A stretch of 64,000 nucleotides of DNA from NCBI RefSeq assembly GCF_014303395.1, contig NZ_CP060298.1, forward strand, positions 2,294,001 to 2,358,000, in the 5' to 3' direction. A program made the position numbers and the translations under genes. The notes below the pieces were generated by a model that made no database searches, was not told the DNA's origin, and worked only from the letters and a program-made list of their open reading frames with translations. The stretch comes from Nakamurella sp. PAMC28650 (GTDB taxonomy: Bacteria > Actinomycetota > Actinomycetes > Mycobacteriales > Nakamurellaceae). Shown piece after piece: positions 6,602-58,648 of this stretch. Each line of letters starts with the position of its first letter. Within the stretch, counting starts at the first letter, position 1.

Positions 6602-7632
6602 ACTGGGTAGCTGCTTGAGTCAAGTTGTATTTGGCCATGTCAGAGCCAGTGTGTGCCTACCCGGTCGGTGGTGTCGATTACCCCCGGACCTTTCAGGAGT
6701 TGCTGGAGTGGTTCCCGGATGACTCGTCGTGTCTGGCGTATCTGGAGCGTCTGCGGTGGCCCCAGGGGTTTGTGTGTCCGGTGTGCGGGGCGCCCGGCGG
6801 TTGGCGTACGGCGAAGGCGAAATGGATGTGCACCAGGTGTGGCCGGCAGACGTCGGTGACCGCCGGCACGATCTTCCACCGGCTCCGGACGCCGCTGTCG
6901 ACGTGGTTCGCGGCGATCTGGTTCATCACCTCGCAGAAGAACGGGATGTCCGCGCAAGGTCTGCAGCGGGTGCTGGGTTTCGGATCCTACGAAACAGCGT
7001 GGGCGTGGCTGCAGAAGCTACGCCGGGCGATGGTCCGCCCCGAGCGGGAGTTGCTCTCCGGTGTGGTGGAGTTAGATGAAGTGTTCATCGGCAACGAGTC
7101 TCGCGGCCGCGCAGGCGGCGTGAAGGACCACACCGCGGCGATGATCGCAGTGGAATCGATCCCCGGCCGCAAGCTGGGCAGGGTCCGCATCGAGCTGGCC
7201 GAGACAGCCCGATCGGTCAGCATGCTCGGCTTCGCCGACCGCGTCATCGCCAAAGGATCAACGGTCAGAACCGATGGCGCCAACTACCTGAAGAAGCTGA
7301 CCGCGGCCGGCTACGAGCACGTCGCGTTCGTCGGGACCGACAGCGCCGAGCCCGCCCACATCAACCTCCCCGGCGTCCACATGGTCGCCTCGCTGCTCAA
7401 ACGCTGGCTGACCGGCACCCTGCATTACGCGGTCTCCCAGGAGCACCTGGCCTACTACCTGGACGAATACACATTCCGGTTCAACCGACGCACCTCGAAG
7501 AGTCGCGGGCTTTTGTTCTACCGACTGTTGCAGCAGGCCGTGAACACAGACCCACACCCGCTCGCTGAACTGCGCAATCCTGTTGCAGCAGTGGACGTCC
7601 CGTTCTGAACTTTACTCAAGCAGCTACCCAGT
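6602..7632 (+). mobile_element. Complete IS1595-family insertion sequence, 1031 bp
   Basis: The ends are inverted repeats: the left 19 bases (6602-6620, ACTGGGTAGCTGCTTGAGT) are perfectly complementary to 7614-7632, extending to 24 of 25 matches. Perfect 8-bp duplications flank the element and one intact transposase fills it. Identical flanks, an intact reading frame and clean ends suggest a recent and possibly active insertion. It sits between two minus-strand genes that would otherwise be 58 bases apart. Confidence 0.95.
6637..7608 (+). CDS. IS1595-family (ISXO2-like) transposase
   Basis: Transposase of the element, 323 aa from the ATG at 6637; an in-frame TTG at 6625 is possible. The N-terminal domain has a zinc ribbon with CPVCG and CTRCG (about residues 45-75), typical of the family. 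The catalytic core shows acidic residues in VVELDEVFIG and VRTDGANY. A later block, LDEYTFRFNRR, is where the third catalytic residue is expected; I am not certain which residue serves. The stop codon lies inside the extended right inverted repeat. No frameshift or internal stop is seen. Confidence 0.94.
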   Translation: MSEPVCAYPVGGVDYPRTFQELLEWFPDDSSCLAYLERLRWPQGFVCPVCGAPGGWRTAKAKWMCTRCGRQTSVTAGTIFHRLRTPLSTWFAAIWFITSQKNGMSAQGLQRVLGFGSYETAWAWLQKLRRAMVRPERELLSGVVELDEVFIGNESRGRAGGVKDHTAAMIAVESIPGRKLGRVRIELAETARSVSMLGFADRVIAKGSTVRTDGANYLKKLTAAGYEHVAFVGTDSAEPAHINLPGVHMVASLLKRWLTGTLHYAVSQEHLAYYLDEYTFRFNRRTSKSRGLLFYRLLQQAVNTDPHPLAELRNPVAAVDVPF

Positions 7633-9033: not shown

Positions 9034-9362
9034 ATCTTCGAGCCGCCGTCAAGATCTCCTATGGAGTGCGTCCTACCTCGCGAATCCCCGCAGTCGACCG
9101 AGGAGGACTCGAGAGTGTCCACCTTGCAGCAGGAACGAATCGTCGACGACGAGCAACACAAGCTGACCTGGCCACGCTCCCGTTCCGGCTGTGAGACCGG
9201 GCCGGGTGCGCGCCGGCCGTCTGCAGCGGCTCTGCATGGACGAAGTGGTCGACTTCTGTCCCACCCGCCCCAAATTCGCAACCTTGAGCCATGCCTGCGA
9301 CTTTGATCCATGCCGCAGGGGGCCGATCCACGCGGGAGGGGACCCGGGCTGGGCCACCGGGG
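9034..9362. other. Intergenic region carrying one palindromic repeat
   Basis: No convincing gene between the methyltransferase and the SnoaL-like protein, whose stops face each other. The only structure I see is the repeat copy at 9234-9313. The reading frames here lack plausible starts and known motifs. Confidence 0.6.
9234..9313 (-). repeat. Palindromic repeat family, copy 1
   Basis: An 80-base copy of a dispersed element. Its core reads, on this strand, GCATGG..TTTGGGGCGGGTGGGACAG..GTCGAC then CGTCCATGC. The ends are imperfect complements (GCATGGA at 9234-9240 against TCCATGC at 9307-9313). It lies between convergent genes, a usual place for such elements. Confidence 0.75.
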
Positions 9363-28609: not shown

Positions 28610-28708
28610 GCGCTTATCAACTTCGCCCGCGCTCATGAAGTGGTCGACTTTTGTCCCACCAGCCCCAAAGCCGCGACGTTGATGAGCGCCGGCGAAGTTG
28701 ATAAGCGC
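28610..28708. repeat. Palindromic repeat family, copy 2
   Basis: A 99-base element with 18-bp perfect outer arms (28610-28627 and 28691-28708, GCGCTTATCAACTTCGCC) and nested arms GCGCTCAT (28630-28637) / ATGAGCGC (28682-28689). The centre GAAGTGGTCGACTTTTGTCCC is nearly identical to copy 1. The ends read TTATCAACTTC instead of TGGATCAACTTC, so this is a sub-type. It lies between convergent icd and the acyl-CoA ligase gene and is followed by a G-run (28710-28742). Confidence 0.88.
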
Positions 28709-55831: not shown

Positions 55832-55911
55832 GCGTGGATCAACTTCCCGGGCATGGATGAAAGTGAGGACTTCTGTCACTCTGGTCCCAAATCCGCGAAG
55901 TTGATCCATGC
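55832..55911. repeat. Palindromic repeat family, copy 3
   Basis: 80 bases with 15-bp ends GCGTGGATCAACTTC (55832-55846) and GAAGTTGATCCATGC (55897-55911), complementary except one base. The centre GCATGGATGAAAGTGAGGACTTCTGTC reads opposite to copies 4 and 5. It lies between add and the AbiEi/DUF559 gene. Confidence 0.92.
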
Positions 55912-56028
55912 AGCGGCCGGCGGCGCAGAAGGGGGCGTCCGGGGACAAGTTGTGCACATACCCCCCAATCCATCCACATTCGGAGCCGAGGCGGCGACAA
56001 CGGGGTTTGCGGCACCGACGATCAGGTC

Positions 56029-57117
56029 ATGACCCGCCTCCGAGATGCGCAGATCCTCGCCGAACTGTTCGACCGATTCGGCGAAGTGGTCGACCAGCGC
56101 GATGCCGATGCGCTCGGCGTGCCCCGGGCACTTCTGCGGCGCGGCACCGACCAGGGTCTCCTGATCCGGGTGGCCAAGTCAGCCTTCGTCCTCCGGAGCC
56201 GAGCTGCGGGCCTGACGGAATGGGACGCCTTTCGCCTGCGGGCCATCGGATTCGGGATGTGCAGCGGTTCGAACGTGCACCTCACCGGGTGGGCTGCCGC
56301 TGCCGTCCTCGGGGTCCCGGTGGTGCACTCCCCACCGCGGCTGCCGACGGCGCTACGACCGGGTGACGCCCACCGGGCGCCCGATCGGACGCCCTACGGC
56401 CGCACTCGCTGGGGCCATCTGCCACCTCGTCATCGGACCACGCGGTTCCGCGTCCCGACGGCGGATGCTGCTTACGCGGCCATCGACATCGCTCGACACA
56501 ACGGCGCAATCGCCGGCCTGGTTGCCGCAGACTTCGTGCTGCACAGTGGAACTCACCGTGAAGTGCTGGCCCAACTGACCAAGGACATGATCAACTATCC
56601 GGGTATCGAGACGGCCAGGTGGGTGGTGGAGTTCGCGGACCCGCGGGTGGAGAGTCCCTTGGAGACGTTGGGCCGGTTGGTGTTTCTGACCAATCGCCGG
56701 GAGGTCCCGTTGTCCAACGTCTGGATCCGCGTGGGTGCGCGCCGCTACCGCGTCGACCATCTGCTGCCGGAGACCGGCGTGATCGTCGAAGCCGACGGTG
56801 CGGTCAAGTACAACAATCGTCCGGATGCCGACCAGATCGTGACGGACGAGAAGAACCGAGAGCGGGACCTTCGCTCCGCTGGGTTCGAGATAGTCCGCTA
56901 CAACTGGGATCTGGCCGTGCGGCGTCCCAGGGAGCTACTCCGGAGGGTGGACATGGCGGAGCGTCTGCGGCGAGGTGGACCGGTGCCCGACTGCTGGTCG
57001 TTGACCACGCCGGCGGAATCCGCGGATCAGCGCACCGGCTTCCGGATCCGGTCCGACTCCTCGGTGCGGCCAGGACCGCCTGCATGGATCAACATGGACG
57101 ATTTGGGACGGGTGTGA
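56029..57117 (+). CDS. AbiEi-like wHTH / DUF559 endonuclease-fold protein
   Basis: A 362-aa two-domain protein of a type common in actinobacteria. The N-terminal winged-helix part (about 1-60, GVPRALLRRGTDQGLLIRVAKSAFV) resembles the AbiEi antitoxin DNA-binding domain. The C-terminal part (about 235-325, YRVDHLLPETGVIVEADGAVKY ... RSAGFEIVRYNWDLA) is a DUF559/Vsr-like restriction-endonuclease fold with Asp, Glu and Lys in active-site order. No AbiEii toxin gene is adjacent. The last ten codons (PAWINMDDLGRV) lie inside repeat copy 4, which supplies the stop. Copies 3 and 4 bracket the gene. Role unknown; a DNA-processing or defence function is inferred. Confidence 0.82.
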   Translation: MTRLRDAQILAELFDRFGEVVDQRDADALGVPRALLRRGTDQGLLIRVAKSAFVLRSRAAGLTEWDAFRLRAIGFGMCSGSNVHLTGWAAAAVLGVPVVHSPPRLPTALRPGDAHRAPDRTPYGRTRWGHLPPRHRTTRFRVPTADAAYAAIDIARHNGAIAGLVAADFVLHSGTHREVLAQLTKDMINYPGIETARWVVEFADPRVESPLETLGRLVFLTNRREVPLSNVWIRVGARRYRVDHLLPETGVIVEADGAVKYNNRPDADQIVTDEKNRERDLRSAGFEIVRYNWDLAVRRPRELLRRVDMAERLRRGGPVPDCWSLTTPAESADQRTGFRIRSDSSVRPGPPAWINMDDLGRV

Positions 57118-57161
57118 CAGGAGTCGTCACTTTCGTCCATGCCTTCGAAGTTGATCCACGC
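57082..57161. repeat. Palindromic repeat family, copy 4
   Basis: 80 bases with complementary ends GCATGGATCAAC (57082-57093) and GTTGATCCACGC (57150-57161), one mismatch. The centre GATTTGGGACGGGTGTGACAG is the family core. It contains the last codons and stop of the AbiEi/DUF559 gene. Confidence 0.92.
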
Positions 57162-57201: not shown

Positions 57202-58437
57202 TCAGACCTCGGACTCGCCGTCCCATTCGAGAGTCGAAGCGAAGCGGTCGACCAGGATGTTCCACGCCGCTACCTCGTCGTCGAACGGTGGAGCCGGCGG
57301 CATCCGGTCGGCGTCGGGCTTGACGATCGCGCTGATCAGGCTTGACAGCGGGGTGGCCGAGGACAGTGCGTCGGAGGTCTCCTCGTCCTTGCGAGCCACT
57401 GCCGCGTCGGTCAGCAACTCGACCGCGAGTTCCAACTGCCTGCGGTCCACCGACCCAGGTCCGGTCATCAGATTGTCGCCGAGACCATCCAGCTCGTAGG
57501 TGTTCTCGGGTCCGGCCACCACGACGGCGTCGCCACCGTCGATCGCCTCCCGGATCTCCGGCCACACAGCCAATGACGCGAGTTTGTGGTCTGCACCGGC
57601 ATCGGTCAGATAGTTCTCCAGTTTCTCGTCGGAGGAGAAGATCTGGATCCTGTTCGCCTTCGACAGGAAGACGGGCTGGTCCTCGAGGTAGCAGCGCATC
57701 GTCCAGCCGCTGCGTCCAGCGACGGTGATCTCGACGCAGTCGATACCGATCTCGTCCCAGAACTCCAGCTCGGGGTCGCGCTCGCCCTCTTCGAGTTCGG
57801 CGACCTCGTCCTCGTCCGGGTCCTGCACCACGACCGCATTGACGGCGACGGCCTCGGCCTCTGCGGCTTCGAGGGTGGACGCGTCGACCTCGGGAGTCTT
57901 GACCAGGCCGTCGAGGGCCTCGATCACCTCGTCCCAGCGCTTGGAGACGACGGCTCCAATTCCGTCCCAGAGCTTCTCGCCGCGGCGGCCGGCGAAGGCC
58001 GTCTCGCCCATGGACAGGACGGCGAAACCGTCGGCGTCGGCCAGCACGTCGTCGATCACCGGCAGATCGCAGACATCGGCCAGCGAGTGCAGGATCGCCA
58101 CGGTGTCGGCCAGCTCGGCGAGCGTCCAGATGTCCGGCGTCTCGGCGACGAGCTCCGGCACCCCGACGATGTCGAAGCGGTGGTCGTCGTCCGGCATGAG
58201 CTCGTCGGTCATCGCCTCGGAGACGGCCTCCCACTCCGGGTGATCGGTGAGGTCGTGCTCGTCGGTGCCGCGGATGAAGGCGGCCAGGTGCGCCGGGGTC
58301 GGGAACACGTACAGATCGTCTCCGTGGCCGAGGAAGGCCTCCCACTCCTCGCCGTCCTCGCGCCAGCGGGGCGCCCACAGCGTCAGGCCGTTGCCGGCCG
58401 TCAGACCGAGCTGGATGGGGATGATTTCCGCGGCCAC
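57202..58437 (-). CDS. Conserved actinobacterial protein, unknown
   Basis: A 411-aa acidic, soluble protein. N-terminal GLTLWAPRWREDGEEWEAFLGHGDDLYVFPTPAHLAAFIRG and the second-half FLSKANRIQIFSSDEKLENYLTDAG look like two copies of one small alpha/beta module (about residues 1-110 and 240-340), joined by an acidic linker (VVVQDPDEDEVAELEEGERD). I recall similar mycobacterial proteins carrying a primosomal-protein label, without evidence I can state. It is flanked by repeat copies 4 and 5. No catalytic motif is seen. Confidence 0.78.
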   Translation of the reverse strand: MAAEIIPIQLGLTAGNGLTLWAPRWREDGEEWEAFLGHGDDLYVFPTPAHLAAFIRGTDEHDLTDHPEWEAVSEAMTDELMPDDDHRFDIVGVPELVAETPDIWTLAELADTVAILHSLADVCDLPVIDDVLADADGFAVLSMGETAFAGRRGEKLWDGIGAVVSKRWDEVIEALDGLVKTPEVDASTLEAAEAEAVAVNAVVVQDPDEDEVAELEEGERDPELEFWDEIGIDCVEITVAGRSGWTMRCYLEDQPVFLSKANRIQIFSSDEKLENYLTDAGADHKLASLAVWPEIREAIDGGDAVVVAGPENTYELDGLGDNLMTGPGSVDRRQLELAVELLTDAAVARKDEETSDALSSATPLSSLISAIVKPDADRMPPAPPFDDEVAAWNILVDRFASTLEWDGESEV

Positions 58438-58568: not shown

Positions 58569-58648
58569 GCATGGATCAACTTCGCCGATTTGGGACGGGA
58601 GGGACAGGAGTCGTCACTTTCATCCATGCCTGGGAAGTTGATCCATGC
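58569..58648. repeat. Palindromic repeat family, copy 5
   Basis: 80 bases with perfect 15-bp ends GCATGGATCAACTTC (58569-58583) and GAAGTTGATCCATGC (58634-58648). Its core GATTTGGGACGGGAGGGACAG has the same orientation as copy 4. It is the cleanest copy and can serve as the family type. Confidence 0.94.

Follow-up and report, generated by a model that had tools for sequence, protein, structure and literature searches.

The chromosome of Nakamurella sp. PAMC28650 (5.63 Mb) carries a gene for a predicted nuclease between two oppositely oriented copies of an 80-bp repeat, which raises the question of whether the unit is a cargo module with inverted ends and a passenger gene, or whether the gene product takes part in moving or maintaining the repeats. 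We examined a window of 64 kb around this locus (chromosome bases 2,294,001–2,358,000; positions below are those of the window) together with related genomes. Both the coordinates and a search for inverted pairs bore out the arrangement given in the preliminary description, with two 80-bp copies facing inward around one gene (Table 1). The arms of this pair extend to 103 nt, are 80% complementary, and are spaced 1166 nt apart. No inverted pair in the window is longer than those formed by copies of this repeat, which is also dispersed genome-wide, so a chance origin of the pair is excluded. Individually, too, the copies are imperfect palindromes (z-scores of -3.5 to -6.1 for RNA folding), and the third full copy lies 1.4 kb beyond the inward-facing pair; an Rfam search returned no match. 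The downstream copy (copy 4) was also said to supply the end of the gene, which holds in the window genome, where it encodes the last 11 codons and the stop, but not in a closely related second Nakamurella species (G001), where the gene ends just before the downstream palindrome. Elsewhere in the window, an IS1595/ISXO2-like transposase gene at 6636–7608 has inverted repeats on both sides.

Table 1. Features of the repeat and nuclease locus, in window coordinates
Feature	Position	Strand	Basis or detail
Upstream palindromic repeat, 80-bp imperfect palindrome, in opposite orientation to copy 4	55832–55911	-	nhmmer 90 bits; 42 aligned own-genome copies; orthologous copy in G001
Tandem DnaA-box-like sites, 20 bp apart	55950–55978	+	TTGTGCACA at 55950–55958; CCATCCACA at 55970–55978
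Nuclease gene, 362 aa	56029–57117	+	ATG at 56029, stop at 57117
Downstream palindromic repeat (copy 4), overlapping the 3' end of the nuclease gene	57082–57161	+	nhmmer 90 bits; orthologous copy in G001
Third full copy, between the 57202–58437 gene and an aminotransferase-like gene	58569–58648	+	orthologous copy in G001
Degenerate copy of the 80-bp repeat family	9224–9294	-	nhmmer 35.5 bits
Degenerate copy of the 80-bp repeat family	28610–28685	-	nhmmer 29 bits

The encoded protein matches Pfam AbiEi_4 above the cut-off at its N terminus (E = 8e-6) and DUF559 weakly at its C terminus (E = 0.002), with no match in NCBIfam. Its layout comprises an AbiEi-like winged helix (residues 8–54), an AbiEi-like middle domain, and a DUF559/Vsr-like nuclease domain (residues ~208–316). 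In a confident AlphaFold2 model (pLDDT 84.6, 58-row alignment), residues 5–204 match the AbiEi structure (Z 9.2), and residues ~206–316 match the I-Bth0305I homing endonuclease domain (Z 11.0), NGO0050 (10.8), and Vsr (9.3). Residues E208, S209, E212, D243, E254, D256, and K260 do not vary in the genus alignment and vary little or not at all across the family, so that a Vsr-like fold with conserved acidic catalytic residues is found in the predicted model and the alignments. As modeled, the protein is an AbiEi-like winged helix fused to a Vsr/EDxHD-type nuclease domain, and, since the acidic-site residues are conserved in both genus and family, we expect an active nuclease.

Palindrome copies and nuclease genes across Nakamurella

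A covariance model of the repeat gave 130 matches at E≤0.001 in the window genome (G000; both strands counted), falling at 77 distinct places among the matches listed, and 92 matches in G001 at the same threshold. We analyzed copies from the sequence stretches around these matches, finding that 42 aligned copies in G000 share a common 80-bp core with abrupt ends into unrelated flanks. Most are intergenic (38 of 42, compared with 22% of random positions), and they favor gaps at gene ends, with 14 in convergent and 3 in divergent gaps (n = 42). The other genes that lie between two close copies of this repeat are amylase-like, AMP-ligase or similar, with no transposases among them. Several copies (L014, L016, L039, L042, and L036) have an extra tandem half-arm (GCATGGATCAACTTCGCC...) beside the core, which suggests partial duplications of the palindrome; at L041:4021–4304, weak partial matches to the repeat model recur at a regular spacing of ~112 bp.

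The presence or absence of the palindrome is clear between species, whereas evidence for mobility at the level of single sites is thin. The sole clear pair of filled and empty sites found between G000 and G001 is the gap between dnaN and recF, which holds a palindrome in G000 (L015:3021–3100) and none in G001; the gap is a few bp long in G001 and has ~205 extra bases, palindrome included, in G000. No target duplication is visible there, and the length difference exceeds the palindrome. Most other orthologous sites are filled in both species, in a comparison biased by taking only filled G001 sites.

At the window's locus, G001 has the identical order of repeat, nuclease, repeat, next gene, and repeat, and in G013 the nuclease occupies this site too, the repeat on its upstream side being diverged. 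The next gene (57202–58437) encodes a conserved 411-aa protein with no Pfam match; each of the 17 Nakamurella species has it beside add or close by. In the proposed check for an empty site between add and this gene, G001 is filled; in G007, which is closest to G013 in the tree, the neighbor genes are 79 bp apart with neither nuclease nor repeats between them, a state that either an empty site or a deletion could explain. Nucleases of the subfamily occur at other loci in G002, G008, and G016, adjoined by repeat-like sequence whose individual matches are weak, and the G016 locus has a clear 47-nt inverted pair; no decayed nuclease was found in the gaps of 1 kb that adjoin add in G008 and G016. 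We found no second identical cassette of nuclease and repeats in the window genome. With the site occupied in G001 as well and the short gap in G007 ambiguous, movement of the 1.33-kb module as a whole is only hypothetical, and the locus is not a one-off cargo module.

Among the 17 species, the window's repeat occurs only in G000, G001, G002, G008, G013, and G016, apart from one marginal match in G010, and these six genomes are exactly those with nucleases at least 46% identical. They are interleaved with species lacking both in a tree built from add and its neighbor gene, so the match is more than the shared trait of one clade; a perfect 6-of-17 match would have a probability of ~1 in 12,000 if species were independent. 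The preliminary description had named two patterns that would count against a link, the gene at this site in all relatives without repeats, or repeats with no association to such genes. Neither was seen.

Bracketing and co-divergence in Actinobacteria

Bracketing by inverted repeats extends across the gene family. After re-locating genes by HMM and applying a score cut-off of at least 18 in a lenient local alignment, we found bracketing for 97 of 174 family genes and 6 of 358 controls (Fisher, 9e-50), the latter made up of 1 of 128 neighboring genes plus 5 of 230 others, many of which lie in repeat-rich stretches. The 174 genes include a few duplicates, two of which were dropped at 97% identity for the comparison of arms with protein identity. 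The top-scoring control in the window is the IS1595 transposase gene with its inverted ends (6636–7608), indicating that the method picks up real elements. In a set of 66 named loci (from Blastococcus, Geodermatophilus, Modestobacter, Pseudonocardia, Nocardia, Jiangella, and others), bracketing reached 59%, compared with 0% in windows further out. Bracketing with different palindromes was found among paralogs in the genus, in other families of the order (a set in which L129 and L137, cut by contig ends, gave false self-matches), and in a sample from the phylum; relatives in contigs were matched by a profile from an alignment of closer relatives, the window protein alone giving none. About 44% of family genes have no detectable bracketing, and sampled members of families f4, f7, and f15 often lack it. 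At L098, L095, and L076, tandem arrays of short repeat units (e.g., CGTAGCGGGGTTGTCCCGC) flank the nuclease genes in place of single palindromes.

The flanking arms are self-complementary in 84% of cases, compared with 9% of shuffles, and the 88 loci with arms group into ~59–69 unrelated palindrome families, depending on threshold. In a joint query built from 22 flank palindromes of 18 genomes, each matched its own genome among the matches listed, often many times (for example, the L081 family in G015, L147 in G086, L136 in G053, and L095 in G016). The only cross-genome case among those matches was the G086 palindrome family in G031; of the G031 nucleases, the one most similar to that of G086 (56% identity) has that palindrome on both sides. 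Within the single chromosome of G081, nuclease paralogs have mutually unrelated palindromes that differ in dispersal, with the L265 family at more than 20 places, L262 and L263 at several, and L261 and L264 mainly as the two gene-flanking copies. A palindrome is shared by 68% of nuclease pairs above 70% identity, by 8% of those at 55%–70%, and by 0 of 2787 pairs below 45%. From these sequence comparisons, we conclude that nuclease and palindrome are cognate partners. A part for the gene in moving or maintaining the repeats, one of the two readings first suggested, is strongly favored over a passenger role, as the arrangement recurs in ~60 palindrome families and the repeats co-vary with the nuclease subfamily.

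A further shared feature lies upstream of the genes. In the 300 bp upstream of 112 family genes, TGTCCACA occurs 48 times in forward and 2 times in reversed orientation, and it is absent from equal stretches downstream, inside the gene, and further upstream of the same genes. Near-copies of the motif are spaced 18–20 bp apart at many family genes; those of the window gene lie past the upstream palindrome and ahead of the start codon, and the 9-mer TTGTGCACA recurs in the dnaA–dnaN intergenic region of the window genome (L015). The DnaA box of Mycobacterium and Streptomyces is TTGTCCACA (PMC4285127). We infer from sequence likeness that the motif is a DnaA box; another regulator may possibly lie behind it.

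A two-part repeat model, its alternatives, and known systems

We consider it fairly probable that the locus represents the master copy of a repeat system with two parts, in which dispersed palindromes are propagated or maintained in trans by a cognate nuclease. One part would be the set of imperfect palindromes, each of roughly 80 bp, that are spread over the gaps between genes, and the other the single cognate nuclease gene held between two inward-facing palindromes. The winged helix probably recognizes the palindrome arm, and the Vsr/EDxHD-type domain probably cuts the palindrome, perhaps as a hairpin extruded when the DNA is single-stranded at replication; cutting would then lead to copying or maintenance of palindromes in trans, as in RAYT/REP systems, with an unrelated enzyme. 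Binding, cutting, copying or transposition, and a link to replication timing via the DnaA boxes are all putative steps. What the sequences show is that the genes are bracketed, that the palindromes are dispersed and specific to their genome, that the two partners occur and diverge together, that residues which look catalytic are conserved, and that a RAYT is absent from the window genome. A trans-acting nuclease is favored by the parallels to REP/RAYT and by the inverted-repeat binding of AbiEi as a ready recognition module. More tentatively, a phylum-wide set of independently evolved REP-like populations may exist, in which an AbiEi/Vsr-type nuclease particular to each population copies it in trans, with expression of the nuclease tied to replication through the promoter DnaA boxes.

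The main rival is autoregulation via the palindrome without cutting, with the flanking palindromes serving as operators or terminators bound by the AbiEi-like winged helix and the dispersed copies representing a regulon or accidental relatives that do not move. The antitoxins AbiEi and Rv2827c bind inverted repeats of 23 bp within the promoters of their own genes (PMC7319586), and upstream palindromes mostly lie within ~250 bp of the gene start. AbiEi-type proteins bind inverted repeats to repress transcription, so that binding by itself would not imply cutting. We nevertheless hold this account unlikely, as a matching inverted copy is also present downstream, the palindromes are 60–100 bp long and multicopy between unrelated genes with a preference for gene ends, and the palindrome families change more quickly than the proteins do, more like mobile DNA than operators. 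A homing or drive element, whose nuclease breaks DNA at related palindromes and thereby has the entire cassette copied there, would suit the resemblance of the nuclease domain to I-Bth0305I and the different loci of subfamily members in G002, G008, and G016, but cassettes are essentially single-copy, their site is vertically shared in G000, G001, and G013, and solo palindromes are many, which makes homing improbable.

The palindromes could also be MITE-like elements moved by an ordinary transposase, with the nuclease genes as merely tolerated neighbors; an IS1595 element does lie in the window, and small non-autonomous elements are widespread. Bracketing is, however, specific to these genes across ~60 palindrome families, and the genes found between close copies of the window's family are not transposases, leaving this explanation very improbable. 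A chance or sampling artifact of GC-rich, repeat-rich genomes, for which the lenient alignment of arms might allow, is refuted by the controls, since the same scoring brackets 1.7% of the 358 control genes, and we give it almost no weight. If the two-part model is true, it represents a second, non-homologous solution in another phylum, implying that such a lifestyle evolves repeatedly; it would provide a function for the very common DUF559/AbiEi gene family, currently annotated as antitoxin or unknown, and could account for many of the repeats that are peculiar to single species of Actinobacteria. Each pairing of a nuclease with its palindrome would be a ready test of recognition specificity.

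To our knowledge, REP repeats with RAYT enzymes are the known case of a bacterial nuclease with its own dispersed palindrome population. In REP/REPIN systems with RAYT (TnpA-REP), a single nuclease gene lies between two inverted palindromes with many intergenic solo copies, the palindromes are enzyme-specific, and the repeats track the presence of the gene (PMC2817692, PMC8049555). The window's nuclease gene is likewise flanked by two inverted palindromes, with repeats that are multicopy and extragenic in their own genome. Its enzyme differs, being of PD-(D/E)XK/EDxHD type with an AbiEi-like domain rather than an HUH Y1 transposase (PF01797), as do the repeats, since the nuclease-linked palindromes span 60–100 bp with no GTAG-type head noticed, and DnaA-box-like sites lie upstream of the gene. 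Membership among RAYTs was rejected, the protein being AbiEi plus Vsr-like and a search of G000 for a Y1/RAYT transposase (PF01797) having found none. AbiEi antitoxins of type IV toxin-antitoxin systems, including Rv2827c, share the N-terminal winged helix and following domain; the window protein has in addition a C-terminal nuclease domain, and its gene is bracketed by dispersed palindromes. An AbiE toxin-antitoxin pair was also rejected, as there is no co-directional AbiEii (DUF1814) partner, the downstream gene being convergent with no Pfam match. The C-terminal fold and acidic active-site residues resemble those of Vsr, I-Bth0305I, and DUF559 nucleases; unlike in those enzymes, the domain is fused to an AbiEi-like one, with no sign of mismatch repair or intron homing. 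A search of open-license papers found no report joining DUF559, AbiEi, or Vsr with REP-type repeats, and within that literature the pairing of an AbiEi/Vsr nuclease class with such repeats is new. If any pair of repeat and nuclease is counted as one kind, the system falls with REP/RAYT; judged by its enzyme and its palindromes, it looks like an independent counterpart of those systems.
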